64,000 bases of DNA from an uncultured Prevotellaceae bacterium (lineage in GTDB: Bacteria; Bacteroidota; Bacteroidia; Bacteroidales; Bacteroidaceae): positions 124,001 through 188,000 of the forward strand of contig CACYPF010000006.1 in NCBI GenBank assembly GCA_902776195.1, read 5' to 3'. The first letter of the stretch is position 1. Each line of letters opens with the position of its first letter. Both the position numbers and the translations under genes were made by a program. The notes under the pieces are model-generated. The model was not told where the DNA came from and made no database searches. It saw only the letters and a program-made list of their open reading frames with translations. This document shows positions 11,680 to 45,300 of the stretch, one piece after another.

Positions 11680-13340
11680 CAAAAAAAATACGTTTTTATG
11701 TGTAAAATCTTCCATTCTCCACAAGAAATACGGGCATGACGACCCTGATGGTCCTGGTCTCCATTGTGTCTTCGGACATATTTTATATGTCCGTTCCCAT
11801 CAATGAGCACTTCATCGACAAAACCAATTCCCACCCGTTTCCCGTTGAAATGGGCATTTTTTGAATTTTGTATGCTTTTCGATGCTCCTTGAGCCACAAA
11901 ACCATCCTCACCCAGCACCTTTTCTTCCTCCATGGCTTTCTCGTAGGCAGTAGCAAAACTGACGACAACTCCACTGCCGGCAAGCAGGTACTCGTCGTCG
12001 GCAAGTTTCATCAGGATGGCTCCTCCTTCCTGCCAGACTGAGCCGTCGGTGGCACGAGGGTCCCAAGGGAGTGTGTAGTAATGCCGACAGGTCATGACAA
12101 TGTCTCCCTCTTGAATGATACGCTCTTTGTCCTGCTGGTCGAAGAGTAGTCCCCAGGTTTTGGTGGTGAGAGGTGAGTGGTGAGAGGTGAGAGATGAGAG
12201 GTGGCGCACCAGCTCATAGGCTTTGGTGACAGAAGCTGTCTCACGAGGGGATGCCTGATCAATGGCAAAGGGTGAGAAACCGAGGGCGTGATGCTCGCCG
12301 AAGGCATAAAGGGCTCGGACACCGCTATTCTCGCAACAGCGACTTTCGGGGATGAATAAGCGGTTGTTGGGGAGTGCATACTGGTCTGCCCACCCTTTGA
12401 ACCCCGTATCGTAGATATCGGGTGCTAGCATTGCCAACTGAGGTGCACCCGCATGCCACAGGTCGATGAGATGGGCAAGGGGACCTGCTGAGGGATACTG
12501 TCCGGGCAGTCTTCCACGGCTGTTCATCGCCGCATTGACATACAGGGGTATCTGTGTATGCTGACGTGCCGTCTCACAGAGTCTTCCCACATACTTGGCA
12601 TAGTAATATGCCATAAAGACCTCGTCGGTATAGATGTCATCACCAAAGACGGATGTCCAGGAAGACCCTCCAGAACAGGAGTCAGAGGAGGTCTTCAGCC
12701 GGTTTTTGAGCCATGGATGGAGTTCTTTCTGATGTTTCCTCAGATAGGTAATCAGTTCCTGTGGTACCCCTTTTTTGTAGATTTCATCGGCAAGTTTTGA
12801 GTGGTCACGTGCCGACTCCAGCATCCCGATTTCGTTCTCCACCTGTATCATACTGACCACATCCTGTCCTGTCGCCGTGATATGTTGGACGAGTCTTCCG
12901 AAGGCACGGTTGTCGGCATGGAAAACATCCTCTGAAAATGGGGTGGCTATCTCCATAGGTTTCCCCTCCTCCGTACAGGCACGTGGAAACCGTTTTGTAT
13001 CTTTCTTAAACCACAGGGGGGCATAGCAGGACATGGAGTTTTTCCATGCGCCAAACCATAAGAAGATGATTTTCAGGTTGTTCTCACGGGCACGTAGGAT
13101 AGTGCGGTCGATGAGGGTGAAATCAAACTTCCCTTCTTCCGGCTCGATGAACTCCCAGTAAGCGGGAACCAATACCGTGTTCAGTCCCAGCGTCTTCATA
13201 CGAGGAATCACCTCGTCGACATCCTCTACCGAGGTCACTGCCGAATTACTCAGTTCTCCACCAAGGACCAAGGGCATCTCCTGTGCCTGCATGCCAAGTA
13301 CTGCCCATAACACCACCATTAATAGTTTTGCTCGTTTCAT
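11679..13340 (-). CDS. GH35 family beta-galactosidase-like enzyme with DUF5597-type C-terminus
   Basis: 553 aa from the ATG at 13340; the longer frame to 13364 starts inside the -7 element and is unlikely. The signal peptide ends near LGMQAQ. The TIM-barrel part carries PAYWEFIEPEEGKFDF, IQVENEIG (predicted acid/base Glu about 170) and LFIPES (predicted nucleophile Glu about 332), as in GH35/GH42 clan A enzymes. The overall length and C-terminal half resemble the Cellvibrio-type GH35 enzymes acting on xyloglucan, but substrate remains inference. A 7-bp tandem repeat (12165-12204) encodes residues of about 379-392 (SLTSHHSPLTT), probably an inserted loop. Confidence 0.85.
   Translation of the reverse strand: MKRAKLLMVVLWAVLGMQAQEMPLVLGGELSNSAVTSVEDVDEVIPRMKTLGLNTVLVPAYWEFIEPEEGKFDFTLIDRTILRARENNLKIIFLWFGAWKNSMSCYAPLWFKKDTKRFPRACTEEGKPMEIATPFSEDVFHADNRAFGRLVQHITATGQDVVSMIQVENEIGMLESARDHSKLADEIYKKGVPQELITYLRKHQKELHPWLKNRLKTSSDSCSGGSSWTSVFGDDIYTDEVFMAYYYAKYVGRLCETARQHTQIPLYVNAAMNSRGRLPGQYPSAGPLAHLIDLWHAGAPQLAMLAPDIYDTGFKGWADQYALPNNRLFIPESRCCENSGVRALYAFGEHHALGFSPFAIDQASPRETASVTKAYELVRHLSSLTSHHSPLTTKTWGLLFDQQDKERIIQEGDIVMTCRHYYTLPWDPRATDGSVWQEGGAILMKLADDEYLLAGSGVVVSFATAYEKAMEEEKVLGEDGFVAQGASKSIQNSKNAHFNGKRVGIGFVDEVLIDGNGHIKYVRRHNGDQDHQGRHARISCGEWKILHIKTYFF
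12165..12204. repeat. Heptanucleotide tandem repeat inside the GH35 gene
   Basis: Units of seven: GGTGAGA, GGTGAGT, GGTGAGA, GGTGAGA, GATGAGA, then a partial GGTGG. It is in the coding frame of the GH35 gene and adds a Ser/Thr/His-rich stretch. Seven is not a multiple of three, so gain or loss of one unit would shift the frame. Confidence 0.85.
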
Positions 13341-13361
13341 AGGTTTTAGTTTACGCTCCTG

Positions 13362-13369
13362 CAAATATA
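13362..13369 (-). promoter_or_regulatory. -7 element (TATATTTG) of the GH35 gene
   Basis: TATATTTG on the minus strand, 21 bp before the chosen start at 13340. The 13370-13550 gap has no full copy of the shared 32-bp box. It has only a weak partial match (TTTTTGTTC around 13415-13423) at a similar distance. Confidence 0.6.
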
Positions 13370-13570
13370 AAACTTTTTTACTGAAAGTCCAAAAATAGAA
13401 TAAAAAAATTGCAGTTTTTGTTCATCCTGACTGAATCCTAAATCCTGAGACCAATAACCCCCATCCTTTCCCTCTTTCCGATAACACTTTACGCCGTTTC
13501 TAGTTATCTTTATGAACCATAAAAGATAAGATTTTACCCTCATTTTTATGGTTTGCTCAATAATTTTTTA

Positions 13571-13578
13571 TAATTTTG
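13571..13578 (+). promoter_or_regulatory. -7 element (TAATTTTG) of the PheC-like gene
   Basis: TAATTTTG matches TAnnTTTG and lies 23 bp before the ATG at 13602. This is why the upstream in-frame ATG at 13548 is rejected as the start. Confidence 0.6.
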
Positions 13579-13601
13579 CAGTTATAACAAGAAGTACCGA
13601 T

Positions 13602-14459
13602 ATGAAGCAACAAACTTTAAATATGGTCGGTCAGACAAGGTTTAAACTACGATTGCTGGCAATGCTGCTGGTCCTGTACAGTACGACGGTTTTGGCTGCA
13701 TGTTCTGATACTAATACCATAGCCAGTCAAGACAGTGGGAAGGTGGCAGAGATTGTGGACCGCGGCACTATCCTTATCGGTACCACTGGCGATTACCGTC
13801 CGCTCTCCTTTTGTGAGGAGGATGGCACCTATTGGGGCTTCGGCATAGAGATCGCCAAGGAGATTGCCCACTCCTTGGGTGTTGAGACGACATTTGTCAA
13901 GACCTCATGGCCCACGCTGACCGCAGACGTACTGGCAGAGCCTCAGATGTTCGACCTTGCCATCGGCGGTATCACGATTACCGATGCCCGGAAGGAAAAG
14001 ATGCTGATGAGTGAGGGCTACCTTGCTAATGGGAAGACGATCCTTTGCCGTGCCACAGAGGCAGACCGGTACAAGTCACTGGCAGATATCAACAAACCTG
14101 GAGTACGGGTGATGGTAAACCCTGGGGGACTGAACGAGAAGTTTGCCAATGAGCATCTCACTCAAGCAACCATCATCGTTCATCAGAAGAATGAGGAAAT
14201 CCCTGCACGCATAGCAGAAGGGGAGGCGGAAGTGATGATTACCGAGATTACAGAGGCACCTTATTACGTACAGACAGACTCCCGGCTCGCGGCTCCTCTG
14301 CTGAAAGAGCCTTTCACCCACGGAGAGATCGGTGTGTTGATGCGTAAAGGGCAGGAGGACCTGTTGCTGATAGTGAACAATGTTATCCGACGCATGAAAC
14401 AAGGCGGAACCCTTCGCCGTCTGCATGAGAAGTACGGACTGGTGTATGCCTATGAATAG
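13602..14459 (+). CDS. Cyclohexadienyl-dehydratase-like (PheC-like) solute-binding lipoprotein
   Basis: 285 aa. The signal peptide ends TTVLAAC (Cys34), so it is a probable lipoprotein. The mature part is a bacterial family 3 solute-binding fold: VDRGTILIGTTGDYRPLSF, YWGFGIEIAKEIAHSLG, FDLAIGGITIT and GVRVMVNPGGLNEKFA. The last two phrases and EVMITEITEA closely resemble the Pseudomonas PheC line of arogenate/prephenate dehydratases, which evolved from amino-acid-binding proteins. The Glu in MITEITEA lines up with the Glu of the PheC MITDAVEA segment. It could therefore make phenylpyruvate or phenylalanine in the periplasm, or still only bind a ligand. No ABC permease genes are adjacent, which argues against a simple transporter subunit. 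Confidence 0.72.
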   Translation: MKQQTLNMVGQTRFKLRLLAMLLVLYSTTVLAACSDTNTIASQDSGKVAEIVDRGTILIGTTGDYRPLSFCEEDGTYWGFGIEIAKEIAHSLGVETTFVKTSWPTLTADVLAEPQMFDLAIGGITITDARKEKMLMSEGYLANGKTILCRATEADRYKSLADINKPGVRVMVNPGGLNEKFANEHLTQATIIVHQKNEEIPARIAEGEAEVMITEITEAPYYVQTDSRLAAPLLKEPFTHGEIGVLMRKGQEDLLLIVNNVIRRMKQGGTLRRLHEKYGLVYAYE

Positions 14460-14485
14460 CAAATAGGCTGATAAACTACAGTTTC

Positions 14486-15121
14486 TTATTTCTTCCGGAT
14501 GAGTGTAAGACCGTCACGCAGCGGGAGAATGACTTGCTCCACGCGTTGGTCTTGCTGTATGTAGTCGTTGAAGGCAACGATACCGTGCGTTTGCTGGTCT
14601 TTCTGATAAGAGGGGTCAACGACATGACCGTCCCACAGGGTATTGTCGGCAAGAATGAAACCACCGGGTCGGAGGATGGAGAGCGTCATCTCATACGTTT
14701 CCCGGTAAGTGCGTTTGTCACCGTCGATAAATGCCATGTCAAATTCAATACCGAGTTTAGGAGCCTCCGTATTGGCATCACCGATGATAAAAGTGATTTT
14801 CTCGCTGACAGGGGAGTTCTCTATCCAAGGACGTGTGAAATCCTCCTGCTCGTCATTGATCTCGAAAGTATACAGATGACCGTTATCGTCCAACCCCTCA
14901 GCCATGCACAGGGCAGAATAACCACTGAAGGTACCCACCTCCAATATATTCTGCGGACGGATCATCCGCACCAGCATCTTCAGCAGTCGTCCCTGCAGAT
15001 GACCCGATGCCATGCGTCCATGCAGCATATGGATATTGGTGGCACGCCATAGCCGGTAGAGATAGTCCGGCTCCGGCTCGATATGACTGAGGATATAGTC
15101 CTCTAAACTCTCAATTCTCAA
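14486..15121 (-). CDS. Class I SAM-dependent O-methyltransferase (family 3)
   Basis: 211 aa. It carries the family's SAM motif ILEVGTFSGYSAL (about 58-70), the metal-site phrase FDMAFIDGDKRTY, and GGFILADNTLWDGHV. It resembles YrrM/caffeoyl-CoA O-methyltransferase relatives, some of which modify tRNA; the substrate is not readable here. The start is a TTG at 15121. The first ATG is about 31 codons further in and would remove the conserved DYILSHIEPEP segment. The TTG and first codons are made by a heptanucleotide repeat. The gap to the upstream aroQ stop is 10 bp, so translation is probably coupled. Confidence 0.85.
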   Translation of the reverse strand: MRIESLEDYILSHIEPEPDYLYRLWRATNIHMLHGRMASGHLQGRLLKMLVRMIRPQNILEVGTFSGYSALCMAEGLDDNGHLYTFEINDEQEDFTRPWIENSPVSEKITFIIGDANTEAPKLGIEFDMAFIDGDKRTYRETYEMTLSILRPGGFILADNTLWDGHVVDPSYQKDQQTHGIVAFNDYIQQDQRVEQVILPLRDGLTLIRKK

Positions 15122-15135
15122 CTCTCAACTCTCAA
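15101..15135. repeat. Heptanucleotide tandem repeat across the aroQ stop and methyltransferase start
   Basis: Five units on the plus strand: CTCTAAA, CTCTCAA, TTCTCAA, CTCTCAA, CTCTCAA. On the minus strand they supply the TGA stop of aroQ (15132-15134), the 10-bp gap and the TTG start plus first codons of the methyltransferase. Confidence 0.9.
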
Positions 15136-15548
15136 CTTAAAAAAGCATCAACAGCCAACCGATAGGAGTCCAGTCCGAATCCACAGATAACACCCTTGCA
15201 GGCTGCGGAGATAAACGAGTGGTGGCGGAACTCCTCCCGCTGGTGGACATTAGAGATATGCACCTCGATAACGGGTGTCTTCAGCGAGCGGATGCAGTCG
15301 TGCAGAGCCACAGAAGTATGTGTATAGGCACCTGCGTTGAGCACGATACCGTCGTATGTAAAGCCCACCTCCTGCATCTTGTTGATCAGCTCACCCTCCA
15401 CATTGCTCTGGAAATACTCGATGTCCACGTCAGGATAGCGCTGCCGCAGCTGAGGGAGGTACTGCTCGAAGGACGAGGAGCCGTAGATACCTGGTTCACG
15501 GGTTCCCAACAGGTTGAGGTTGGGACCATTAATAATCAGAATTTTCAT
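15132..15548 (-). CDS. aroQ: Type II 3-dehydroquinate dehydratase
   Basis: 138 aa from the ATG at 15548, the normal family length (about 140-150). It catalyses 3-dehydroquinate to 3-dehydroshikimate in the shikimate pathway. Signature segments: IINGPNLNLLGTREPGIYG (with the active-site Arg and Tyr), QSNVEGELI, VLNAGAYTHTSVAL, and EVHISNVHQREEFR with the catalytic His. It is divergent from xerD, with only 46 bp between the starts. Its neighbourhood with a PheC-like lipoprotein is suggestive of aromatic amino-acid synthesis, but the two are on opposite strands. Confidence 0.97.
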   Translation of the reverse strand: MKILIINGPNLNLLGTREPGIYGSSSFEQYLPQLRQRYPDVDIEYFQSNVEGELINKMQEVGFTYDGIVLNAGAYTHTSVALHDCIRSLKTPVIEVHISNVHQREEFRHHSFISAACKGVICGFGLDSYRLAVDAFLS

Positions 15549-15565
15549 AATTCGGAAATAATTCG

Positions 15566-15573
15566 TAACTTTG
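15566..15573 (+). promoter_or_regulatory. -7 element (TAACTTTG) of xerD
   Basis: TAACTTTG matches TAnnTTTG, 22 bp before the xerD ATG at 15595; the leader would be about 16 nt. Confidence 0.6.
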
Positions 15574-15594
15574 CGGACAAAAGTACAAAATAAA

Positions 15595-16539
15595 ATGGAA
15601 ACCGGCAAGAAATCACAGACAAATGTTGTCAAGAACTACCAGCGGTACCTGAAATTGCAACGTGGTTTCTCTGTTAATACGTTGGATGCTTACCGTCGTG
15701 ACCTGCAGAAACTGCTTCATTATCTGGAGCAGGAAGGGAAGGATGTCTGGGAGGTGCAACTGCCAGACTTGCAGCATTTTGCAGCTACCCTGCATGACAT
15801 CGGCATCCATCCCCGCTCGCAATGCAGAATACTGAGCGGCGTACGCTCGTTCTTCCGTTTCATGGAACTGGACGGTTACCGGGAGGACGACCCCTCGGAA
15901 CTGCTGGAGAGTCCTGTCCTGGGAGAGCATCTGCCAGAGGTACTGTCACCTGCTGAGGTGGATGCGCTGGAGGACTCCATCGACCTCTCTAAATGGGAGG
16001 GACAGCGTAACCGTGCCATCATCGAAGTACTGTTCTCCTGTGGGCTGCGTGTCAGCGAACTCGTCAACCTGAAACTCTCCAATATCTATGTCGACGAGCA
16101 GTATGTGCGGGTGTTCGGCAAAGGGTCGAAAGAGCGGCTGGTACCCATCTCACCCAAGGCACTGCGGGAGTTGGACAAATGGTTTATCGACCGTAACCTC
16201 ATGAAGATAAAACCCGGTGAGGAGGATTATGTGTTCCTGAACCGCCGGGGTGCCCACCTCACCCGCACCATGATACTCATTATGATCAAAGAGCAGGCTG
16301 TTGTGGCAGGTATCCAAAAGACCATCTCCCCCCATACCCTGCGCCATTCCTTCGCCACCGCTCTCCTCGAAGGAGGTGCTGACCTGCGTGCCATACAGGC
16401 GATGCTGGGACATGAGTCAATCGGTACGACGGAGATATATACCCATATCGACATGTCAACGCTGCGCCAGGAGATACTGGAGCATCATCCGAGGAATATG
16501 AAGAGACCCCCCTCTGACTCCCCCGAGAGGGAGGAATAA
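15595..16539 (+). CDS. xerD: Site-specific tyrosine recombinase XerD
   Basis: 314 aa from the ATG at 15595. It has an N-terminal SAM-like core-binding domain (YQRYLKLQRGFSVNTLDAYRRDL) and the catalytic set: Arg in FSCGLRVSEL, Lys in GKGSKERLVPI, HTLRHSFAT (His-x-x-Arg), GHESIGTTEIYTHID with the terminal Tyr nucleophile. With XerC it resolves chromosome dimers at dif. The normal family end is at about EHHPRN; the last dozen residues (MKRPPSDSPEREE) are an extension encoded by a G/C-rich dispersed repeat. Confidence 0.95.
   Translation: METGKKSQTNVVKNYQRYLKLQRGFSVNTLDAYRRDLQKLLHYLEQEGKDVWEVQLPDLQHFAATLHDIGIHPRSQCRILSGVRSFFRFMELDGYREDDPSELLESPVLGEHLPEVLSPAEVDALEDSIDLSKWEGQRNRAIIEVLFSCGLRVSELVNLKLSNIYVDEQYVRVFGKGSKERLVPISPKALRELDKWFIDRNLMKIKPGEEDYVFLNRRGAHLTRTMILIMIKEQAVVAGIQKTISPHTLRHSFATALLEGGADLRAIQAMLGHESIGTTEIYTHIDMSTLRQEILEHHPRNMKRPPSDSPEREE
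16504..16534. repeat. G/C-rich imperfect palindrome at the 3' end of xerD
   Basis: Related to elements in ribD (37689-37720) and comM (46691-46723). On the minus strand it reads CCTCCCTCTCGGGGGAG followed by an AGAGGGGGGTC-type tail. It replaces the normal xerD terminus with an in-frame Pro/Ser/Glu tail. Confidence 0.75.
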
Positions 16540-16605
16540 GAAGTGAGGAATGATAAAAAATATTAATAATGTGGGGAGTTTCTCGGTGGTACTGCAACTT
16601 TTATG

Positions 16606-16613
16606 TAACTTTG
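16606..16613 (+). promoter_or_regulatory. -7 element (TAACTTTG) of the M16 peptidase gene
   Basis: TAACTTTG about 54 bp before the ATG at 16667. It places transcription downstream of the in-frame start at 16550, so the first 39 codons of that longer frame are unlikely to be translated. Confidence 0.6.
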
Positions 16614-16666
16614 TGCGTCTTTTAAGACAAATGTTGCTAACATTTAACTATCAAATATATTATTTT

Positions 16667-19495: not shown

Positions 19496-19515
19496 CCAAC
19501 CTCACTTCATAACCC

Positions 19516-19553
19516 AAACGGCTTGTTTCGTAAAGAAGCAAGCCGTTTTATTT
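19516..19553 (+). terminator. Rho-independent terminator after the M16 peptidase gene
   Basis: The stem AAACGGCTTG (19516-19525) pairs with CAAGCCGTTT (19539-19548) around a 13-nt loop, followed by TATTTTG. Confidence 0.88.
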
Positions 19554-19574
19554 TGTCATGTCGCAAAAACTCCG

Positions 19575-21891: not shown

Positions 21892-21900
21892 GACACAAAA

Positions 21901-23295: not shown

Positions 23296-23300
23296 CCTGT

Positions 23301-23360
23301 CATCTAGAATCATCTAGAGAAATCTAGAACGTTCTAGAACATTCTAGAAAAATATAGAGA
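23301..23360. repeat. Six-unit 10-bp TCTAGA tandem array before tyrS
   Basis: Units in register: CATCTAGAAT, CATCTAGAGA, AATCTAGAAC, GTTCTAGAAC, ATTCTAGAAA, AATATAGAGA. Units 3-4 form a perfect 16-bp palindrome (23323-23338, TCTAGAACGTTCTAGA). The period equals one DNA turn. It occupies most of the 85-bp gap between yidD and tyrS. Confidence 0.9.
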
Positions 23361-23380
23361 AAAATAAAATAAAAATAGAA

Positions 23381-34664: not shown

Positions 34665-36440
34665 ATGAAGATTGAAGCGCAAATCATGAATGCCGCCATC
34701 GGGGCAGTGAAAGCCTTGTATGGTCAGGAGGTACCTGAGAAGATGGTACAGTTGCAGAAGACACGCAGTGAGTTCGAGGGTAACCTGACACTCGTCGTTT
34801 TCCCTTTTTTGAAGATTTCCAAGAAGAGTCCTGAGCAGACCGCACAGGAGATAGGACAGTATCTGACTGACCATTGTGAGGCTGTCGCCTCTTACAATGT
34901 GGTGAAGGGTTTCCTGAACCTGGTTGTGGCTCCGCAGGCATGGCTCTCCCTGCTCACCGATATCGACGCGGACGAGCAGTATGGTCATAAGCAGGCTACT
35001 GAGGAGAGTCCACTGGTGATGATAGAGTATTCTTCCCCCAACACCAATAAACCGCTCCATCTGGGTCATGTGCGCAACAACCTGCTGGGCTGGTCGCTGG
35101 CGCAGATCATGCAGGCGAACGGCAATAAGGTGGTGAAGACGAATATCGTCAACGACCGTGGTATTCATATCTGTAAGTCGATGCTCGCCTGGTTGAAGTG
35201 GGGTAATGGTGAGACTCCCGAGACCAGTGGTAAGAAGGGTGATCATCTCATCGGTGACTATTATGTGGCTTTCGACAAGCATTACCGGGAGGAGGTCAAA
35301 CAACTCATGGCTCAGGGGATGGACGAGGAGAAGGCAAAACAGGAGGCTCCCCTCATCAAAGAGGCGCATGAGATGCTGGTCAAATGGGAAAACAATGACC
35401 CTGAGGTGCGTGCCTTGTGGGAGAAGATGAATAACTGGGTATATGCCGGTTTCGACGAGACATACCGGAAGATGGGTGTGTCATTCGATAAGATATATTA
35501 TGAGAGTCAGACGTATCTGAAAGGTAAGGCAAAGGTAGAGGAGGGTCTTGCCAAAGGACTCTTCGAGCGTCATGCCGACAACTCCGTATGGGCTGACCTC
35601 ACCAATGAGGGTCTTGACCAGAAACTGCTGCTGCGCTCGGATGGTACCTCTGTCTATATGACACAGGATATCGGAACGGCGGAGATGCGTTTCCAGGACT
35701 ATCCCATCGACAAGATGATCTATGTGGTGGGCAACGAACAGAACTACCACTTCCAGGTGCTCTCTATCCTCCTTGACCGTCTGGGCTTCAAGTGGGGTAA
35801 GGAACTGGTGCATTTCTCTTATGGTATGGTGGAACTGCCGAATGGTAAGATGAAGTCGCGCGAGGGAACCGTGGTGGATGCCGACGACCTGATGGAACTG
35901 ATGGTCAGCGATGCCCTGAAGGCTGCCGACGAGGCAGGAAAGAATGCCGACCTGTCGGAGGCTGAGAAACTGGAGATTGCCCGTATCGTGGGCATGGGTG
36001 CCTTGAAATATTTCATCCTCAAGGTGGATGCCCGTAAGAACATGCTCTTCAACCCCGAGGAGTCGATAGACTTCAATGGTAATACAGGACCTTTCATCCA
36101 GTATACTTATGCCCGTATCCGCAGCATCCTGCGCAAGACAACTATAGCTCCTATAGTCCCTATAGTCCCTATATCAGACAAAGAGATAGAACTTATCCAG
36201 AAGATGAGCGAGTATCCTGCTGTCGTGGAGCAGGCTGGCAAGGATTATTCCCCCAGCGGCATCGCTAACTACTGCTACGAGCTGACGAAGATTTTCAACC
36301 AGTTCTATCACGACTTCAGCATTCTTAACGAGCCTGATGAGCAGAAACGACAGGTACGTCTTGTCCTAGCTCGTAATGTGGCAAAAGTGATAAAGAATGG
36401 TATGTCGCTGCTGGGTATTGAGGTACCAGAGAGAATGTGA
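34665..36440 (+). CDS. argS: Arginyl-tRNA synthetase
   Basis: 591 aa, class I. An N-terminal Arg-S additional domain (1-100) is followed by SSPNTNKPLHLGHVRNN (HIGH-like, near residue 130), VGNEQNYHFQVL, the GKMKSREGT motif, and the C-terminal DALR anticodon domain. Between LRKTT and ISDKEIELIQ, around residues 493-504, a 9-bp repeat (CTATAGTCC type) encodes APIVPIVPIS, an in-frame insertion relative to the usual family spacing. The same nonamer repeat recurs before argH. Confidence 0.97.
   Translation: MKIEAQIMNAAIGAVKALYGQEVPEKMVQLQKTRSEFEGNLTLVVFPFLKISKKSPEQTAQEIGQYLTDHCEAVASYNVVKGFLNLVVAPQAWLSLLTDIDADEQYGHKQATEESPLVMIEYSSPNTNKPLHLGHVRNNLLGWSLAQIMQANGNKVVKTNIVNDRGIHICKSMLAWLKWGNGETPETSGKKGDHLIGDYYVAFDKHYREEVKQLMAQGMDEEKAKQEAPLIKEAHEMLVKWENNDPEVRALWEKMNNWVYAGFDETYRKMGVSFDKIYYESQTYLKGKAKVEEGLAKGLFERHADNSVWADLTNEGLDQKLLLRSDGTSVYMTQDIGTAEMRFQDYPIDKMIYVVGNEQNYHFQVLSILLDRLGFKWGKELVHFSYGMVELPNGKMKSREGTVVDADDLMELMVSDALKAADEAGKNADLSEAEKLEIARIVGMGALKYFILKVDARKNMLFNPEESIDFNGNTGPFIQYTYARIRSILRKTTIAPIVPIVPISDKEIELIQKMSEYPAVVEQAGKDYSPSGIANYCYELTKIFNQFYHDFSILNEPDEQKRQVRLVLARNVAKVIKNGMSLLGIEVPERM
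36142..36177. repeat. Nine-bp CTATAG tandem repeat inside argS
   Basis: Units CTATAGCTC, CTATAGTCC, CTATAGTCC, CTATATCAG. Nine-base units keep the frame and give a repeating PIV peptide. A second array of the same family is at 41011-41055. Confidence 0.85.
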
Positions 36441-36898: not shown

Positions 36899-37820
36899 GG
36901 GTGTTCGAACCATATTGCTGTTGACATAATACTTTCGCCTCGGCTGGTAGCTGAGGCGCTTTTGTACCCTCCGTGACAGTGAGTGCATGGTTGGTCTCCA
37001 CACGTATCTCATCCCAAAGACCGGCTTCGATGAAAGTCTCGTGAGTCTGTCTCCCCCCTTCCACTATCAGTGACTGTATCTGGTGTTGGTAGAGGTCGTC
37101 CATGAGTTGGGGTAGGGGACGGTCATGGGTCAGCACGATGCGCTTGGGGTCAGGACCATGCCAGTGGCGAACGTTCAGCTGGGGGTGCTCACGGTCATAG
37201 GTGGTATGTCCCACCAGGATAGCGTCTTCCTCGGCACGCAGTTTATGGGAGAGCATCTGTGTCTGTTCATTACTAATCATGATTGATTGGAAATGGTCGT
37301 CCATAAACCCGTTGGCGGTCTGTGCCCATTTTAATATAATGTACGGGCGATGCTTCGAGTGATACGTGAAGAAACGGTGGTTCAGCCATTGGCATTCCTC
37401 CTCCAACACACCTACTGTCACCTCGATGCCTGCCTTGCGGATCATCTCCACGCCTTTCCCCTGTACTTTTGCGAAGGGGTCGATACATCCCACCACCACA
37501 CGCTTCACGCCTTTCTTGATGATCAGCTCGGCACAAGGGGGTGTCTTACCATAGTGGGCACAGGGCTCTAAGGAGACATAGATGGTAGCACCCCTCAGTA
37601 GCGGCTCGTCTTCCGGGCGCACCGAGGCAAAGGCGTTGACTTCGGCATGCCCCTCACCACAACGCACATGATAGCCCTCACCGATGATGGACCCCTCCAA
37701 CCTCCCCTGCTGAGGGGCGGCTACTATCACGGCACCGACCATCGGGTTAGGGCGTGCGCCCTGTATTCCGTTGGCTGCCAGTTGCAGGCATCTCCGCATG
37801 TACTTCTCGTCTATAGTCAT
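36843..37820 (-). CDS. ribD: Bifunctional riboflavin deaminase/reductase
   Basis: 325 aa. The N-terminal deaminase has the zinc motif HAE (58-60) and PCAHYGKTPPC (86-96); the C-terminal half is the NADPH-dependent reductase (RIVLTHDRPLP, LIVEGGRQTHETFIEAGLWDEI). It catalyses two early steps of riboflavin synthesis. Between GAVIV and IIGEGYH the family is normally short, but here PQQGRLEGS (about 36-44) is added by a G/C-rich dispersed repeat. The 3' end overlaps the convergent RNase H gene by 56 bp. It is divergent from prmC. Confidence 0.95.
   Translation of the reverse strand: MTIDEKYMRRCLQLAANGIQGARPNPMVGAVIVAAPQQGRLEGSIIGEGYHVRCGEGHAEVNAFASVRPEDEPLLRGATIYVSLEPCAHYGKTPPCAELIIKKGVKRVVVGCIDPFAKVQGKGVEMIRKAGIEVTVGVLEEECQWLNHRFFTYHSKHRPYIILKWAQTANGFMDDHFQSIMISNEQTQMLSHKLRAEEDAILVGHTTYDREHPQLNVRHWHGPDPKRIVLTHDRPLPQLMDDLYQHQIQSLIVEGGRQTHETFIEAGLWDEIRVETNHALTVTEGTKAPQLPAEAKVLCQQQYGSNTLISYRNQQESHPISEFPT
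37689..37720. repeat. G/C-rich imperfect palindrome inside ribD
   Basis: Plus-strand pieces ACCCCTCCAACCTCCCC, then TGAGGGG. On the coding strand it reads AGCAGGGGAGGTTGGAGGGG and is closely similar to the comM element. It adds about nine residues in frame near the RibD N-terminus. Confidence 0.75.
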
Positions 37821-37823
37821 TAC

Positions 37824-37864
37824 CTTTTTACTTTTTTTACCTTTTTACTTTTTTACCTTTTTAC
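37824..37864. repeat. T-rich octanucleotide array between ribD and prmC
   Basis: Units of 8-9 bp: CTTTTTAC, TTTTTTTAC, CTTTTTAC, TTTTTTAC, CTTTTTAC. It fills most of the 65-bp gap between the divergent starts and lies where the -33 region of prmC should be. Confidence 0.8.
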
Positions 37865-37873
37865 TTTTATTTG

Positions 37874-37881
37874 TATCTTTG
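37874..37881 (+). promoter_or_regulatory. -7 element (TATCTTTG) of prmC
   Basis: TATCTTTG ends only four bases before the prmC ATG (37886). Transcription should start at or within a base or two of that ATG, implying a leaderless or nearly leaderless mRNA. Confidence 0.65.
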
Positions 37882-37885
37882 CACT

Positions 37886-38737
37886 ATGACTTATCGTGAT
37901 TTCTGGAATCATCTGACTACCATCTATGACGAGGGCGAGGCGAAAGCCGTTGCCCGTATGGTCTATGAAGTGCGTTTCGGTCTCTCGTGGACAGACCTAT
38001 GCATCGGCAAAGATACGCAATTATCTGCAGACAACCAAACCGAACTGCAGGAAATATTACGGCGGCTGTTGCAAAAAGAACCCGTACAGTATGTCCTCGG
38101 ACAGGCTGACTTCTGTGGCAGGACCTTCCTCGTCAATGAGCATGTCCTCATCCCCCGTCCAGAGACCGAGGAACTGATACAGTGGTTCCTCGAAGTCCGC
38201 TCCTACTTGGGGGAGTCAGAAGAGGGGCACATTCTCGACATCGGCACAGGGTCAGGATGTATCGCCATCACCCTTGCCGCCATGTATCCCAACGCACACG
38301 TCACCGCCTGGGACATCTCCCCCGAGGCATTGGATGTGGCAAAGGTGAATGCCGGGCGCCGCCACGTCAGCGTCACCTTCCAACAAGTCGACATTCTCGC
38401 CCCATCACTCCCCACTCCCCACTCCTCACTCACCACTATCATCAGCAATCCTCCCTATATCGCTGATCACGAACGTGCCACGATGGAGGCGAATGTCTTG
38501 GAGTACGAGCCAGCAACAGCCCTCTTCGTCCCCGATGAAGACCCCCTGCTGTTCTATCGTGCCATCGCTACCTACGGACAGACAGCCCTGCAGCCGGGTG
38601 GTTGGCTCTATTTCGAAATCAACCCTCTCTATGTCAACGAGCTATGTGAGTTGTTACGTGTGATGCGATTCCATCGCATCGAAACCAAGGAAGACCAATT
38701 CGGCAAACAGAGGTTCATAAGAGCACAACGATCATGA
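37886..38737 (+). CDS. prmC: Peptide chain release factor N5-glutamine methyltransferase
   Basis: 283 aa from the ATG at 37886. A helical N-domain is followed by the SAM motif ILDIGTGSGCIAITLAA and the catalytic NPPY (ISNPPYIADHE). It methylates the GGQ glutamine of RF1/RF2. Heptanucleotide repeats (38407-38440) encode the Pro/Ser/Thr-rich APSLPTPHSSLTT stretch (about 172-186) just before the NPPY segment. The stop overlaps recX by four bases (ATGA). Confidence 0.95.
   Translation: MTYRDFWNHLTTIYDEGEAKAVARMVYEVRFGLSWTDLCIGKDTQLSADNQTELQEILRRLLQKEPVQYVLGQADFCGRTFLVNEHVLIPRPETEELIQWFLEVRSYLGESEEGHILDIGTGSGCIAITLAAMYPNAHVTAWDISPEALDVAKVNAGRRHVSVTFQQVDILAPSLPTPHSSLTTIISNPPYIADHERATMEANVLEYEPATALFVPDEDPLLFYRAIATYGQTALQPGGWLYFEINPLYVNELCELLRVMRFHRIETKEDQFGKQRFIRAQRS
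38407..38440. repeat. Heptanucleotide tandem repeat inside prmC
   Basis: ACTCCCC, ACTCCCC, ACTCCTC, ACTCACC, then ACTATC. It lies in the coding sequence next to the catalytic NPPY motif; a one-unit change would truncate PrmC by frameshift. Confidence 0.88.
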
Positions 38738-39889: not shown

Positions 39890-39932
39890 TAAAAAACTCC
39901 TCGTACAAGCCCATAATCTCGGATTTTTTGTC

Positions 39933-39940
39933 TAAATTTG
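39933..39940 (+). promoter_or_regulatory. -7 element (TAAATTTG) of pyrE
   Basis: TAAATTTG, 28 bp before the pyrE ATG at 39968. It lies over an in-frame upstream start at 39938, so that start is rejected. Confidence 0.6.
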
Positions 39941-39967
39941 CACCCAAAAGAAACAATAATAACCATT

Positions 39968-40600
39968 ATGGATACTATCAAGAAACTATTTGCCAAGAAA
40001 CTGATGGACATCAAAGCCATCAAGTTGCAGCCTAACGAGCCGTTCACATGGGCATCAGGCTGGAAATCGCCTATCTACACAGACAACCGCAAGACACTCG
40101 GTTATCCGGAGGTACGCTCGTTCGTCAAACTGGAACTCTGTCACCTCATCCAGCAGTATTTCCCTGAGGCTGAGGCGGTGGCTGGTGTTGCTACAGGTGC
40201 TATCGCACAGGGTGCGCTCGTCGCTGACGAACTGGGATTGCCTTATGCCTATGTCCGTCCGAAACCGAAAGACCATGGTATGGGTAACCAGGTGGAGGGT
40301 GAGCTTGCCAAGGGTACGAAGGTCATCGTCGTCGAAGACTTGATATCGACGGGTGGCAGCAGTCTGAAGGCGGTAGAGGCTTTGCGCCAGTATGGTGTGG
40401 AGGTTATTGGCATGGTGGCTTCTTTCACTTATGGTTTCCCTGTTGCCGAACAGGCTTTCAAGGAGGCTGGTGTACAGCTCATCACGCTCAGTGACTATGC
40501 CGCAGTACTCGCACAGGCTGCGGAGACGGGCTATATCAAAGCGGAAGAGATTGAGGTGTTGAACGAGTGGCGGCAGTCACCAAGTACTTGGAAACAATGA
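39968..40600 (+). CDS. pyrE: Orotate phosphoribosyltransferase
   Basis: 210 aa from the ATG at 39968. It has the family segments FTWASGWKSPIYTDNRKTL, AVAGVATGAIAQGALVAD, YVRPKPKDHGMGNQVEG and the PRPP loop VIVVEDLISTGGSSLKA. It converts orotate to OMP in pyrimidine synthesis. The ATGA overlap with the SRPBCC gene shows co-translation. Confidence 0.97.
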   Translation: MDTIKKLFAKKLMDIKAIKLQPNEPFTWASGWKSPIYTDNRKTLGYPEVRSFVKLELCHLIQQYFPEAEAVAGVATGAIAQGALVADELGLPYAYVRPKPKDHGMGNQVEGELAKGTKVIVVEDLISTGGSSLKAVEALRQYGVEVIGMVASFTYGFPVAEQAFKEAGVQLITLSDYAAVLAQAAETGYIKAEEIEVLNEWRQSPSTWKQ

Positions 40601-41010
40601 CAAAATTCGAGAGTAGCGTCAAGCAGATAGACTACCCCGTTGAGGATGTCTATCGTAACATCAGCGACCTGCGTAACCTTGAGCGGGTACGTGACCGTGT
40701 CCCTGAGGATAAGTTGTCGGACTTTGCCTTTGACGAGGACACCGTGCAGGTGAATGTCGCCCCCGTCGGGCTTCTCAAGCTCCGTATCATCGAGCGTGAG
40801 GAAGGCAAGTGTGTGAAATTCGAGACTGAGCAGTCGCCGATGCCTTTCAACCTGTGGATACAGGTGCTCCCTGTGACCACGACGACCAGTAAGATGCGGG
40901 TAACGGTAAAGGCCGACATCCCCTTTATGCTCAAAGGGATGGTCAGCGGTCCCCTGCAGGATGGTGTTGAGAAAATCGCTGATGCGCTTGCGCAAGTGCC
41001 TTATATTTAA
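40597..41010 (+). CDS. SRPBCC (START-like) family protein
   Basis: 137 aa starting with the ATGA overlap at the pyrE stop. The helix-grip fold pattern is readable: an N-terminal strand (FESSVKQIDYPVEDVYRNISDLRNL), a central beta sheet with EREEGKCVKFETEQSPMPFNLWIQVLPV, and a long C-terminal helix (GPLQDGVEKIADALAQV). These domains bind hydrophobic ligands, but no ligand or enzyme activity can be assigned. A 9-bp repeat array follows immediately after the stop. Confidence 0.8.
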   Translation: MTKFESSVKQIDYPVEDVYRNISDLRNLERVRDRVPEDKLSDFAFDEDTVQVNVAPVGLLKLRIIEREEGKCVKFETEQSPMPFNLWIQVLPVTTTTSKMRVTVKADIPFMLKGMVSGPLQDGVEKIADALAQVPYI

Positions 41011-41055
41011 CTATAGCCACTATAGGAACTATAGGTACTATAGTCACTATAATTA
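41011..41055. repeat. Nine-bp CTATAG tandem array upstream of argH
   Basis: Units CTATAGCCA, CTATAGGAA, CTATAGGTA, CTATAGTCA, CTATAATTA. It abuts the preceding stop codon and ends nine bases before the argH start, so it occupies nearly all of the leader. Same family as the array inside argS. Confidence 0.88.
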
Positions 41056-41063
41056 TAATAATT

Positions 41064-42398
41064 ATGAACAAGCTTTGGGAGAAGAACTTTGAGGTGAATG
41101 CGGAGATAGAGCGCTTCACCGTGGGACGCGACAGGGAGATGGACCTCTATCTCGCTCCTTATGACGTACTGGGCTCTATGGCGCATATTACCATGCTGGA
41201 GTCTATCGGTCTGTTGGAGGCGGACGAACTGCAGCTGTTGCTGGCGGAGTTGAAGAATATCCATGCGGTATGCCAGCGGGGTGAGTTTCGTATTGAGGAG
41301 GGTGTTGAGGATGTCCACTCGCAGGTGGAGCTGATGCTCACCCGTAAACTGGGGGATATCGGTAAGAAGATTCACTCGGGACGCTCCCGCAACGACCAGG
41401 TATTGGTCGACCTGAAACTGTTTACCCGTCATGAGTTGATGGAGGTTGCCGACAGCATAAAAGTGCTCTTCGACGAGCTGCAGACGAAAAGTGAGCAGTA
41501 TAAGGCGGTGCTGATGCCGGGATATACGCATCTGCAGGTTGCCATGCCCTCGTCGTTCGGACTGTGGTTCGGCGCCTATGCGGAGTCGCTCTGTGACGAT
41601 ATGCTCTTCCTGCAGGCAGCCTATAAGATGACCAACCGTAACCCGCTGGGCTCTGCCGCAGGCTATGGCTCGTCGTTCCCCCTCAACCGGCAGATGACGA
41701 CAGACCTGCTGGGCTTCGACTCCATGGACTATAACGTGGTGTATGCGCAGATGGGAAGGGGTAAGATGGAGCGTAACGTGGGCTTTGCCATCGCTACCAT
41801 CGCGGGTACCTTGGCGAAACTTGCCTTCGACGCTTGTTTGTTTAACTCCCAGAACTTCTCGTTCGTACGCCTGCCGAAGGAGTGTACGACGGGATCCAGC
41901 ATCATGCCGCATAAGAAGAACCCGGATGTCTTTGAACTCATCCGTGCGAAATGTAATAAACTGCAGGCACTGCCCCAGCAGGTGACACTGATCATGAACA
42001 ACCTCCCCGTGGGTTATTTCCGTGACTTGCAGATCATCAAGGAGGTGTTCCTCCCTGCCTTCGACGAGCTGAAAGACTGTCTGCAGATGGCTGCGTATAT
42101 CATTAATAAGATAGAGGTACGCGAGGATATCCTCGACAACCCGATGTACGACCCGATGTTCTCTGTCGAGGAGGTCAACCGCCTCGCCGCAGAGGGTATG
42201 CCGTTCCGTGATGCCTATAAGAAGGTGGGACTCGATATCGAGGCAGGCACCTTCCGTCCCAACAAGGATATCCACCACACCCACGAAGGGTCTATTGGTA
42301 ATTTGTGCAACGACCGTATCGCAGCCCTCATGCAACAAACCCTCGACGGCTTCGGTTTCGACCGCGTCCGTGACGCAGAAAGGAGACTCCTGCAATGA
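41064..42398 (+). CDS. argH: Argininosuccinate lyase
   Basis: 444 aa. The signature GSSIMPHKKNPDVFEL, an N-terminal SRNDQV loop (IHSGRSRNDQVLVDLKLF) and TRNPLGSAAGYGSSFP are all present. It is the last step of arginine synthesis. The stop overlaps the next lipoprotein gene by four bases (ATGA). A long open frame on the opposite strand is only a shadow of this codon usage. Confidence 0.97.
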   Translation: MNKLWEKNFEVNAEIERFTVGRDREMDLYLAPYDVLGSMAHITMLESIGLLEADELQLLLAELKNIHAVCQRGEFRIEEGVEDVHSQVELMLTRKLGDIGKKIHSGRSRNDQVLVDLKLFTRHELMEVADSIKVLFDELQTKSEQYKAVLMPGYTHLQVAMPSSFGLWFGAYAESLCDDMLFLQAAYKMTNRNPLGSAAGYGSSFPLNRQMTTDLLGFDSMDYNVVYAQMGRGKMERNVGFAIATIAGTLAKLAFDACLFNSQNFSFVRLPKECTTGSSIMPHKKNPDVFELIRAKCNKLQALPQQVTLIMNNLPVGYFRDLQIIKEVFLPAFDELKDCLQMAAYIINKIEVREDILDNPMYDPMFSVEEVNRLAAEGMPFRDAYKKVGLDIEAGTFRPNKDIHHTHEGSIGNLCNDRIAALMQQTLDGFGFDRVRDAERRLLQ

Positions 42399-42985
42399 AA
42401 CGCATCACCTCTTACCTCTTATCTCTTGCCTCTTACCTCTTACTTCTGACCTCTTGCGGTGCAGAACAGCAATACTCCTCCTGGTCCTGCCGCTTTATCT
42501 TCAATAACGGCACCTACCTCGACCAGACGATAGGGGCTGCCATCAATCCTACCGTCACAGGTATTTTCTGTAAAATTACCGACGAGTCAAGGGGTGGCAC
42601 TCGCTATCTGATTTTCGAGAACAACCAAGGGGTGTCTTCCCAGCACCAGATGATGGCGGAGGAGTTGCGACAGAACCTGCGCATCGGACAGAATGGTGGT
42701 ATCATCGTGGGGGTGCAGAGCCTGGGCGACTATTCCTTTGCGGCTTACGACCTGCAGTGTCCTAACTGTGCCAGACGGGAGAACAATATCGTCACTCCCT
42801 ACTATCCTGTCGACTTCGACAAGAAAGGCTCCGGTACGGTTACTTGCACGGTATGTGGCGACCAGTATGACCTTAACAACGGGGGACTGCTCATCAAGGG
42901 TAAAGAGGGTGACAAAGGGTTGGAGCGCTACCGCAACGCACGTACCGAGGGTCCCACGGGCAGAGTCGTTGTCTTGTCAAACTAA
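42395..42985 (+). CDS. Lipoprotein with paired CxxC motifs
   Basis: 196 aa, starting in an ATGA overlap with argH. The signal peptide is built almost entirely from a heptanucleotide repeat (TSYLLSLASYLLLLTSC, Cys21 lipidated). The mature protein has DYSFAAYDLQCPNCARREN and later TVTCTVCGDQYDLNNGG, a CxxC...CxxC pair that could bind zinc or iron in a Rieske-like beta fold; the two His of a true Rieske site are absent. The C-terminus is RNARTEGPTGRVVVLSN. Function unknown; likely a conserved Prevotellaceae/Bacteroidetes lipoprotein. Confidence 0.72.
   Translation: MKRITSYLLSLASYLLLLTSCGAEQQYSSWSCRFIFNNGTYLDQTIGAAINPTVTGIFCKITDESRGGTRYLIFENNQGVSSQHQMMAEELRQNLRIGQNGGIIVGVQSLGDYSFAAYDLQCPNCARRENNIVTPYYPVDFDKKGSGTVTCTVCGDQYDLNNGGLLIKGKEGDKGLERYRNARTEGPTGRVVVLSN
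42408..42456. repeat. Heptanucleotide tandem repeat encoding a signal peptide
   Basis: Seven units in a row: CCTCTTA, CCTCTTA, TCTCTTG, CCTCTTA, CCTCTTA, CTTCTGA, CCTCTTG. Three units (21 bp) encode seven residues, so the protein shows the heptapeptide periodicity SYLLSLA then SYLLLLT. Confidence 0.92.
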
Positions 42986-43001
42986 GTATTAATAAAATAA
43001 G

Positions 43002-43025
43002 GTACGCCCGCGCATATGCGCGTAC
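43002..43025. terminator. G/C-rich palindrome after the lipoprotein gene (probable terminator)
   Basis: CGCGCATATGCGCG (43009-43022) is a perfect palindrome flanked by GTAC on both sides with a short bulge. A T run (TTTTTT) follows at about 43031. It lies 17 bp after the last gene of the pyrE-argH-lipoprotein run. Confidence 0.6.
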
Positions 43026-43149
43026 ATAAGTTTTTTACCCTTAAAAGGAGTGAAAAACGAGTGAAGGTGCCGCTTCCTCCTTGCGAAGCCTTAGGTATCA
43101 TAAATGAAAACTTTATCATGCAGAATTGTAATCTGACTTGGTTTACCAT

Positions 43150-43237
43150 GTAAATCAATTTGATTTACTCGGTAATTCAATTTGATTTACTCAGCAATTC
43201 AATTTGATTTACTTTGCAAATCAATTTGATTTACAAT
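43150..43237. repeat. Four 22-bp units, each an inverted repeat
   Basis: Four head-to-tail 22-bp units at 43150, 43172, 43194 and 43216. Each contains the palindromic pattern GTAAATCA-NNN-TGATTTAC with 0-2 changes. The period is two DNA turns, so the sites face the same side. There are no unique spacers, so this is not a CRISPR array. It lies in the 561-bp gap 42986-43546, which holds no gene I can support. Confidence 0.92.
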
Positions 43238-43313
43238 GAAGGGAGGCATCTTTTACATCTGTTATTGTTACTGGTATCAAGGGAATCAAGGGTGATAAGG
43301 GATGTTGTCCTTG

Positions 43314-43402
43314 AAATCTATCAATCTGTCAGCCTATCTGTCAGCATGCAAGCAGTTGTCTGTCAGTGTGTTAAATCCTCTCGCTGATAGATTGACAGAT
43401 TT
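43314..43402. repeat. Long inverted repeat upstream of tRNA-Leu
   Basis: The 20-nt arms 43314-43333 and 43383-43402 are complementary at 18 of 20 positions (consensus AAATCTRTCAATCTRTCAGC) around a 49-nt loop. CTGTCAG occurs three times between 43326 and 43367. It could be a structured RNA, a defunct MITE-like element or a regulatory hairpin. Confidence 0.75.
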
Positions 43403-43509
43403 TTCTTGATTTTTAAAACTTAGGTATATTTTTTTTGAGGAGAAATGAGGTGATCATACTCACGTTCGAAAAAATGCAAATAAAATTTGCTTTTTTACTC
43501 ACTTATTCG

Positions 43510-43517
43510 TATCTTTG
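43510..43517 (+). promoter_or_regulatory. -7 element (TATCTTTG) of tRNA-Leu
   Basis: TATCTTTG, 29 bp before the tRNA 5' end. Confidence 0.65.
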
Positions 43518-43546
43518 CACCCGCAAAGTGAAAAAACAGGTCTACT

Positions 43547-43631
43547 GCCGCGATGGTGGAATGGTAGACACGAGGGACTTAAAATCCCTTGGCCAGTAAT
43601 GGCTGTGCGGGTTCGAGTCCCGCTCGCGGCA
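43547..43631 (+). tRNA. tRNA-Leu (anticodon TAA)
   Basis: Acceptor arms GCCGCGA (43547-43553) and TCGCGGC (43624-43630). The anticodon loop CTTAAAA carries TAA. There is a long variable arm typical of leucine tRNAs and a T arm GGGTTCGAGTCCC. No CCA is encoded. The convergent HAD gene ends on the next base. Confidence 0.95.
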
Positions 43632-44327
43632 CTAAGACAGCAGATGCAGCAGTTCTCTGAATTGCTGCATTTTGTATAGTCGCTCATGAGGGAACTCCTC
43701 CGATTTCTCCAGTTCCCACACCACATGATAGGGGATATACGCTGCCCATGCACCAGCCTGCAGTGCCGGAGCGATATCACTGCGGAACGAGTTGCCCACC
43801 ATCAGCGTCTCCTCCGGAGCCACGTCCAGGTTCTCACACAACTGCCGGTATTCCGTCACTGTCTTGTTCGACACCGTCTCCAGACGGCAGAAATACTGCT
43901 CCAGTCCCGACCGCCTCAGCTTATCCTCCTGATCCATCAGCTCACCCTTGGTGAACACCACCAGGCGGTAGCGCCGTCGTTGCACCAGTGCCTCCAGTGT
44001 CTCCTGCACCCCCGGCAGTGGTGTTGTCGGAAACCGCAACAGCTCCTTTCCCATGTCGATAAGACGCATCACGTCATCACCACTGATCTCCCCGTGCGAT
44101 ATCCGCACCGCATTCTCGATGAGCGACAGGGTGAACGCCTTCGTGCCATACCCCGTCAGCGACAAGTTCCGGTGCTCGGTGGCAAACAGTCCCTCGCTCA
44201 CCTCCTTCCTCGTCGCCCACGGCTTCAGCAACTCCGCACACCGCTCCTCCACCGAGTCAAACCACGACTGGCAGTCCCACAGCGTATCATCCGCATCAAA
44301 AGCTATCACCCTAAACTCTCTCTTCAT
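43632..44327 (-). CDS. HAD-superfamily hydrolase
   Basis: 231 aa. Motif I FDADDTLW (nucleophile Asp and acid Asp), motif II VVFTKG, motif III Lys in VSNKTVTEY and motif IV MVGNSFRSDI are all present, so it should be an active phosphatase of the Gph/YjjG-like group. The substrate is unknown. The stop codon begins one base after the tRNA-Leu discriminator. It is preceded by the symporter gene at one base, so the two are one operon. Confidence 0.9.
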   Translation of the reverse strand: MKREFRVIAFDADDTLWDCQSWFDSVEERCAELLKPWATRKEVSEGLFATEHRNLSLTGYGTKAFTLSLIENAVRISHGEISGDDVMRLIDMGKELLRFPTTPLPGVQETLEALVQRRRYRLVVFTKGELMDQEDKLRRSGLEQYFCRLETVSNKTVTEYRQLCENLDVAPEETLMVGNSFRSDIAPALQAGAWAAYIPYHVVWELEKSEEFPHERLYKMQQFRELLHLLS

Positions 44328-44328
44328 T

Positions 44329-45300
44329 TTATTTCTTTACCTTTTCCCTCAACTCTATCGAATTGATAATATTCTGCCACAGCACATAACAGCCTGCCCC
44401 TATCGATGCCACCGGATGCAGATACATATACGACACCCAGATACTCAGCGCCGTGTTCTTCTGGAACAACCCCTGCCCACTGTTGATACGCTCCCCTAAG
44501 TAGCGACCCACCAGCCGTCCGATACCGAACTGCACCCAGCATAATGCGAAGGTACCCACGGCAATGGCAGCCAGCATCAGTAGCGAAGCCTCGCTATGCA
44601 CGATATTCTTCACCGTGATACCCGTTGTTATCGACAGAGACACTGCCCAGCAGTAGAAGCTAAGGTCTGGTACTGACACTATTTTACGGCATACTCCCTT
44701 CGCATAATGCTGCATTACCCATCCCAGTACCAGGGGCAGCAGTAACACATACGACACTTTCTCCAGTATCGTCAGGAAAGCCTCCGTGAACGCTACGTCA
44801 GCCGTCGGCTCCAGCATCGGGAACACCAGTGGTATCAGCAGTGCCGAGGCAACCGACGACAGCAGCACATACGATGACATCGTCGATATATTACCCCCCA
44901 GCTTACCCACCACTACGGGTGATGCCGAGGCTGCGGGACCTATGATACATGTCAGCAGTGACTCCCAGAACAACTTGAAACCTGAATTCTGAATCCTGAA
45001 ACTTGAATCCAGCCGCTCACTGTCCACCGCCAGTGCAATCACCAGACCCACCAGCAGCAGTTGTGCGAGGAGCACCCCTGCGTGCCACTTATGCGGTCTC
45101 ATATCATGGAAGTCCACCTTACAGAATGTCACGAAGAGCGTGGCGAACACCGTGACGGGGAATAGCGTGTCGAAGACCGGGCTCAGCATATTCCCTGTCT
45201 CGTCCAGTGCCGGTACGAGGTAGAATGTCAAGTAACACACCGTCCCCGTAGCAATAGCCACCGGCAATGTCCAGTCCTTGAGAAAACGCACGATTCGCAT
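44329..45300 (-). CDS. Bile acid:sodium symporter (SBF) family membrane protein
   Basis: 323 aa from the ATG at 45300; the longer frame to 45381 begins upstream of the promoter. It has about nine hydrophobic segments, including PVTVFATLFVTFCKVDF, the conserved CIIGPAASASPVVVGKLGGN with the substrate-site residues, and SYVLLLPLVLGWVMQ. SBF/BASS proteins carry bile acids, pantothenate, pyruvate or other anions with sodium; the substrate cannot be told here. A 7-bp repeat (44974-45008) encodes SSFRIQNSGFK (about 98-109) in a loop between membrane segments. Confidence 0.88.
   Translation of the reverse strand: MRIVRFLKDWTLPVAIATGTVCYLTFYLVPALDETGNMLSPVFDTLFPVTVFATLFVTFCKVDFHDMRPHKWHAGVLLAQLLLVGLVIALAVDSERLDSSFRIQNSGFKLFWESLLTCIIGPAASASPVVVGKLGGNISTMSSYVLLSSVASALLIPLVFPMLEPTADVAFTEAFLTILEKVSYVLLLPLVLGWVMQHYAKGVCRKIVSVPDLSFYCWAVSLSITTGITVKNIVHSEASLLMLAAIAVGTFALCWVQFGIGRLVGRYLGERINSGQGLFQKNTALSIWVSYMYLHPVASIGAGCYVLWQNIINSIELREKVKK
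44974..45008. repeat. Heptanucleotide tandem repeat inside the SBF gene
   Basis: CTTGAAA, CCTGAAT, TCTGAAT, CCTGAAA, CTTGAAT. It encodes a polar loop of a membrane protein; unit loss or gain would frameshift the gene. Confidence 0.85.

Follow-up and report, generated by a model that had tools for sequence, protein, structure and literature searches.

Does a tandem repeat within a gene, when its unit of seven nucleotides is not a multiple of three, serve to switch that gene on and off? The question is raised by five heptamer arrays in a window of 64,000 nucleotides, the whole stretch of DNA analysed (positions 124001-188000 of contig 6), from the genome of a rumen Prevotella (G000; 2.97 Mb in 42 contigs). 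Arrays of this type are in flexible protein loops, at the joints between genes and in promoters, where they seem to let loops and spacers vary slowly and not to turn genes on and off. They are heptanucleotide simple-sequence repeats with units of one family, probably slippage-born and filtered by length and frame, whose effect would be the diversification of loops and spacers and not switching.

The five arrays were first pointed out in an earlier note on this DNA. Tandem Repeats Finder, used for the repeat calls in the window, gives period 7 at all five and differs by at most 3 bp on their position (Table). A second detection, by a simple period-7 autocorrelation score with a threshold of 11 for the window, recovers exactly the same five. 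That they exceed chance expectation is borne out, as 200 Markov-3 simulations of the window have a mean of 0.025 arrays and a maximum of 1. The window is not special. At the same threshold, 475 kb of contigs 1, 2 and 4 contain 20 arrays, or 2.69 per 64 kb, so that array density in the window is about twice the genome background. In a 400-kb sample outside the window, period 7 leads all periods from 2 to 30 with 15 arrays scoring at least 12 (period 22 is next, with 12), and a Markov-2 copy of the sample has one.

Unit sequences do differ from array to array, as the note had it, but they are related. Among 35 G000 arrays AACTCTC is the unit of 13, and 42% of unit pairs, with distance counted over rotations and strands, have at most one mismatch, compared with 5.8% for within-unit shuffles. 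Seventeen of the 35 came from contigs picked for CTCTCAA matches. The 18 from unselected contigs comprise five with AACTCTC, three with ACCTCTC and ten other units once each, and 33% of their pairs are within one mismatch (300 shuffles: mean 6.2%, maximum 11.8%). In another genome, G010, AACTCTC is the unit of 15 of 21 arrays. The units are thus one preferred family, AACTCTC/GAGAGTT and its near relatives. A purine or pyrimidine bias, which the note ascribed to all units, does not extend to the array in the SBF-family transporter gene, where no clear bias is present (0.50 for its counterpart in the sister species, G051). Three tandem copies of CTCTCAA, with at most one mismatch, occur in 54 of 149 genomes of the genus, a patchy distribution, and in a separate sample in 11 of 40 genomes; G000 is among these 11, and another, from outside the genus, has a single place. 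Counts of CTCTCAA places (110 in G000) are of overlapping registers of single arrays, and the reversed-pattern control of this search carries no information, its counts being equal to the forward ones since AACTCTC read backwards is its own rotation. At threshold 14, two 100-kb stretches of G010 contain 1 array and 20 arrays, the latter stretch having been picked for its clustered matches, and none are found in 100 kb each of G016, G040 and G061 (9,500 bases masked in the last).

The evidence on switching comes from comparison of G000 with G051, two species each represented by one genome. Arrays scoring at least 12 in 797 kb of G000 and 367 kb of G051 were taken, and orthologues were required for both flanks; 38 arrays were omitted as having no orthologue to compare or being near the end of a stretch. 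After removal of duplicates, the sites were sorted by hand into 20 in genes, 6 at gene boundaries and 5 in spacers. Longest-frame open reading frame (ORF) calls give the wrong strand in places (contigs C32 and C3), so the assignment to gene or boundary is itself partly by hand. At all 20 in-gene sites the length difference is zero or a multiple of 3 bp, and at none of them does it break the frame. Twelve sites are of equal length; the others differ by 33, 21, 84, 42, 21, 36, 36 and 6 bp, and in the 33-bp case the reading frame was checked and is open in G051. Half of these eight changes (21, 84, 42 and 21) are multiples of 21 bp, which is three units. Three 7-bp units are seven codons, and one 21-bp step adds a 7-residue repeat whichever frame is read. 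The translation of (CTCTCAA)3 is LSTLNSQ, in which the 3-4 spacing of leucines is like that of an amphipathic helix. Phase variation between species is not supported.

At gene boundaries five of the six differences are not divisible by 3. They are 14 bp at the aroQ/methyltransferase junction, 28 at C35:9711 (such labels give contig and position), 7 at C3:149516, 6 at C38:7282, 19 at C10:151037 and 16 at C32:5713. Only G051 has the array at these last two sites, and the gene model at C10:151037 is ambiguous. The net difference is zero at three of the spacer sites, C4:69262, C3:138876 and C20:68892 (the last with an array in G051 only), and the remaining two are large replacements of 254 and 430 bp. 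Which length changes survive differs with the kind of site. The number of whole units changes by 84, 42, 21 and 21 bp in genes and by 28, 14 and 7 bp at boundaries; the differences of 33, 36, 36, 6, 19 and 16 bp are not multiples of 7. Units are also swapped in place. At C16:19409, in a gene, about four units of ACCTCTC in one genome correspond to ACCTCAG in the other with no net change in length, and the flanks are 98% identical. Other swaps are at C38:7282 (flanks 95-97%) and at the aroQ/methyltransferase junction, which in G051 is the longer one and has its unit partly changed to AGTGAAG. An array is present in one genome only at 5 of the 20 in-gene sites: that in the GH35 gene, Mfd C35:10906, C10:93513, C10:146680 and C10:156556.

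On four G000 contigs 10 of 23 arrays are inside ORFs of at least 100 codons, 5 are at their edges and 8 between them. Since such ORFs cover 92-94% of these contigs, a figure that overestimates coding, arrays are under-represented in genes. In repeated TTGAGAG, GGTGAGA or AGTGAAG each frame meets a stop codon once per 21 bp; repeated CTCTCAA, CTCTCAC, CACTCCC, ACCTCTT or GGATTCA is stop-free. This difference between the strands accounts for the way in which the window's in-gene arrays are oriented. Exceptions elsewhere are C1:74335 and C1:169819, short or impure, which have their purine side on the ORF sense strand.

All five window arrays were thought to be inside or across genes. Three are inside (GH, prmC and SBF), one encodes a signal peptide and one is at a junction of two genes. 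Of the gene labels first proposed, those at the junction (DHquinase_II and Methyltransf_3) and for prmC (PrmC_N, with MTS) have Pfam matches, and those of GH35 and SBF stand less firmly (Table). The junction array provides both the stop codon of aroQ and the start region of the methyltransferase. That in prmC, present at equal length in G051, fills a stretch which varies in length among PrmC orthologues, a coil between two strands directly before the SNPPY motif; in an AlphaFold model (mean pLDDT 92.1) residues 173-186 are coil and 187-192 a strand. The prmC gene of G053 also contains an array, with another unit and elsewhere in the gene. The putative lipoprotein has no Pfam match, though its N-terminus, MKRITSYLLSLASYLLLLTSCG, looks like a lipoprotein signal, and G051 has a decayed version of its array, 6 bp shorter. 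The SBF array is in G000 and, at equal length, G051 only, with none in the other 10 of 12 orthologues compared. The GH loop has no array in G051, where its length is the same; three of six orthologues have arrays there and the units differ (those of G056 and G007 are others again).

Table. Repeat arrays of the window and the two genes for which coordinates are given; calls by Tandem Repeats Finder are consensus, copy number and matches
Feature	Position	Strand	Location or assignment	Tandem Repeats Finder call
Heptamer array, unit TCTCACC on coding strand	12165..12203	-	variable loop of DUF5597/GH42-35 protein	12165-12203, GGTGAGA, 5.6 copies, 87% matches
DUF5597/GH42-35 gene	11679-13364	-	Pfam DUF5597 and GH42, borderline GH35 match	
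Heptamer array, unit TTGAGAG on coding strand	15101..15137	-	aroQ stop / O-methyltransferase start junction	15101-15137, CTCTCAA, 5.3 copies, 90% matches
8/16-bp T-rich array	37820..37868	+	directly before TATCTTTGCA, upstream of prmC	
Heptamer array, unit CACTCCC	38406..38437	+	prmC residues ~179-189	38406-38437, CACTCCC, 4.6 copies, 88% matches
Heptamer array, unit ACCTCTT	42407..42455	+	encodes signal peptide of putative lipoprotein	42407-42455, ACCTCTT, 7.0 copies, 80% matches
Weak heptamer array, unit GGATTCA on coding strand	44972..45010	-	variable stretch of SBF-family transporter gene	44976-45010, TGAATCC, 5.0 copies, 75% matches
SBF-family transporter gene	44329-45381	-	Pfam SBF match 0.5 bit below cut-off	

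The GH loop is not alone in this. Arrays of differing units are at matching sites of several species in Mfd loops and at the aroQ/methyltransferase junction also. At the junction they occur in 7 of 14 genomes (G000, G051, G053, G071, G049, G073 and G008, with none in the other 7), and units there include AGTTGAG, AGTGAAG, AGTTGAC, AATTGAA and AGTTCAC. Four sites in Mfd were scanned in 11 genomes at threshold 9. Arrays are present at the first in G000, G049, G018 and G008, at the second in G000 alone, at the third in G000, G051 and G008, and at the fourth in G000, G051, G049, G056 and G018; the loop array of G018 has period 7. Such recurrence may mean that arrays arose more than once, or that a single old array has had its units turned over. 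[In mfd of G008 there is also an inverted pair of AATTGAAA-type arrays within one open reading frame.]

Heptamer arrays on this evidence probably arise and turn over throughout the G000 genome and in part of its genus. Replication slippage or unequal exchange would add, remove and homogenise units, and selection would then filter the products. Within genes, survivors would be those without in-frame stops and with the frame kept, by changes of zero or often of multiples of 21 bp (7 residues), and they would occupy loops, linkers and a signal peptide. Where a stop adjoins a start, one or two units could be gained or lost, and in promoters A/T-rich variants would occupy the spacer beside a −7-like TAnnTTTGC element. 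The outcome would be slow diversification of loop and spacer sequence with no on/off switching. Protein-loop diversification, which the earlier note offered as its alternative, fits better than switching because the arrays lie where orthologues vary in length and because four of the changes in genes are exactly 21 bp or a multiple of it.

Several features weigh against this explanation. Divisibility by 3 in genes follows from coding constraint in any model; it shows filtering and argues against fixed switching, and is no argument for a function. The sister data are from one genome per species. Slippage alone does not predict pairs with and without an array that have no net difference in length, as are found at GH35, C10:156556 and the intergenic C20:68892. 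In the second of these, a TatD-like gene, the array is at G051:C10:156556-156592 and the counterpart, G000:C3:140856-140985, is of equal length without one, yet the peptide retains its leucine pattern (REVLTNIRQQLGTLSCIAIG versus REVLSTLRSQLSTLNCIAIG). Finally, varied units are what plain slippage predicts, yet one unit family is found again in species with PrmC proteins about 52% identical. One repeat process is visible under three constraints, those of genes, boundaries and promoter spacers, in one genome pair, which makes it testable what heptamer repeats contribute to the evolution of loops and promoters. It also cautions that a non-triplet repeat in a gene need not be a phase-variation switch.

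That related units occur at many loci, and patchily across the genus, might instead reflect insertion of a dispersed mobile element or an enzyme that writes arrays from a template. In G010 the arrays cluster in one region (contig 3, 1.59-1.69 Mb), often paired in inverted orientation with CTAG nonamers close by; in several such pairs a purine and a pyrimidine array are separated by 46-110 bp. Such an origin is unlikely. In G000 the 250-bp flanks of the 35 arrays have no common inserted element and share only two matches of 20-21 bp, and the units vary from array to array and have been exchanged in place. Many flanks in G010 do match one another, partly since the arrays are closely spaced there and adjoin repeats of other kinds, and the flank comparison is clear for G000 only. 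No candidate for an array-writing enzyme was found, no search having been aimed at one. It is distinctly unlikely that a sequence-directed process writes and rewrites heptamer arrays in place in part of Prevotella, sometimes without change of length, and that evolution rebuilds loops and promoter spacers with it, though the TatD-like pair, alike in length and peptide, would suit such a process. Net-zero array gains were considered as proof of in-place writing and set aside as too few (two of the five in-gene presence/absence pairs).

A selected regulatory function, as binding sites, promoter spacers or transcript hairpins, would suit the intergenic arrays. TAnnTTTG is presumably the −7 element of Bacteroidetes promoters, and TAnnTTTGC is within 12 bp of 7 of 11 A/T-rich intergenic arrays in G000 and 6 of 9 in G051 (controls 11.9% each), though the two counts are not independent as at least two of the adjoining arrays are one site in both genomes. 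Without the A/T cut, the motif is within 30 bp of 7 of 15 and 6 of 16 intergenic arrays, compared with 8-10% of random stretches, and some arrays lie between two divergent motifs. As the general explanation it is nevertheless quite improbable: in-gene arrays are left unexplained, the motif is seen once with 56 genic arrays, and the sister lacks arrays at some of the motif sites.

The answer to the opening question is that contingency loci, the reading to which the earlier note inclined and in which each gene is switched reversibly by the frameshift that gain or loss of a single unit brings, are very improbable here. Unit number does change between the species at boundaries (7, 14 and 28 bp) and seven is not a multiple of three, but the absence of frame-breaking differences at the 20 in-gene sites stands against switching, as do the shortness and imperfection of the arrays, and most of the host genes that Pfam identifies have housekeeping or metabolic roles (prmC, aroQ, mfd, metH, glycosidases). 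Artefact of metagenome assembly, suggested by the nearest named relatives being metagenome assemblies and by the 42 contigs of G000, is scarcely conceivable for arrays that are short, frame-consistent, common to independent assemblies and abundant in the 3-contig genome G010.

Head-to-tail 7-nt units beyond chance genome-wide, with whole-unit variation between relatives, place the arrays among heptanucleotide simple-sequence repeats. As relayed in passages of PMC4679880, 7-nt repeats are the commonest class in most repeat-rich genomes and polymerase slippage has been proposed for them (Mrazek 2007). The long repeats of Mrazek et al. 2007, as represented there and in part of PMC4692102, resemble the present ones in genome-wide 7-nt arrays, lineage-specific abundance and proposed slippage; one related unit family, in-place swaps between sisters and frame-filtered arrays in housekeeping genes set Prevotella apart from that account. 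Direct repeats of TAACTGA, described in PMC4679880 for Beggiatoaceae, Cyanobacteria and five Bacteroidetes, also vary in 7-nt steps between close strains, are in some cases within ORFs or overlap stops, and have no mobile element evident in that description. However, they are nearly of one unit and mostly just upstream of start codons, and no rotation of TAACTGA is among the 35 G000 array units. The GGGNATC-type G-quadruplex heptamers of Xanthomonas and Nostoc, in the relevant portion of PMC4692102, are abundant genome-wide and mostly non-coding; unlike them, the Prevotella units lack G-tracts. Rickettsia palindromic elements, as outlined in sections of PMC10969869, are alike in one respect only, being repetitive DNA in frame inside unrelated genes, but they are inserted elements of ~150 bp and the flanks of the 35 G000 arrays have no common element. 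What is unusual against these known repeats is the shared unit family, the in-place swaps, the repeated use of loops and junctions, and the frame filter. A literature search, with subscription journals mostly outside its coverage, found no report of such arrays in Prevotella among the papers listed.

Repeats of other kinds are present in the window. The T-rich array upstream of prmC has a counterpart in G051 that is not repetitive. Two period-9 arrays, 36142-36173 (in argS) and 41010-41065 (before a lyase gene), have a core of CTATAG plus a variable triplet; the first has none in G051 and the second is conserved, and G010 has CTAG-centred nonamers in their place. At 23300-23362, just before an ORF, TCTAGA recurs every ~10 bp and the G051 counterpart has GAATAT-like repeats. 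At 43138-43238 there are 22-bp repeats, TTGATTTACCATGCAAATCAAT, within a 520-bp stretch, instead of which G051 has ~90 bp with AATTTCT heptamers.

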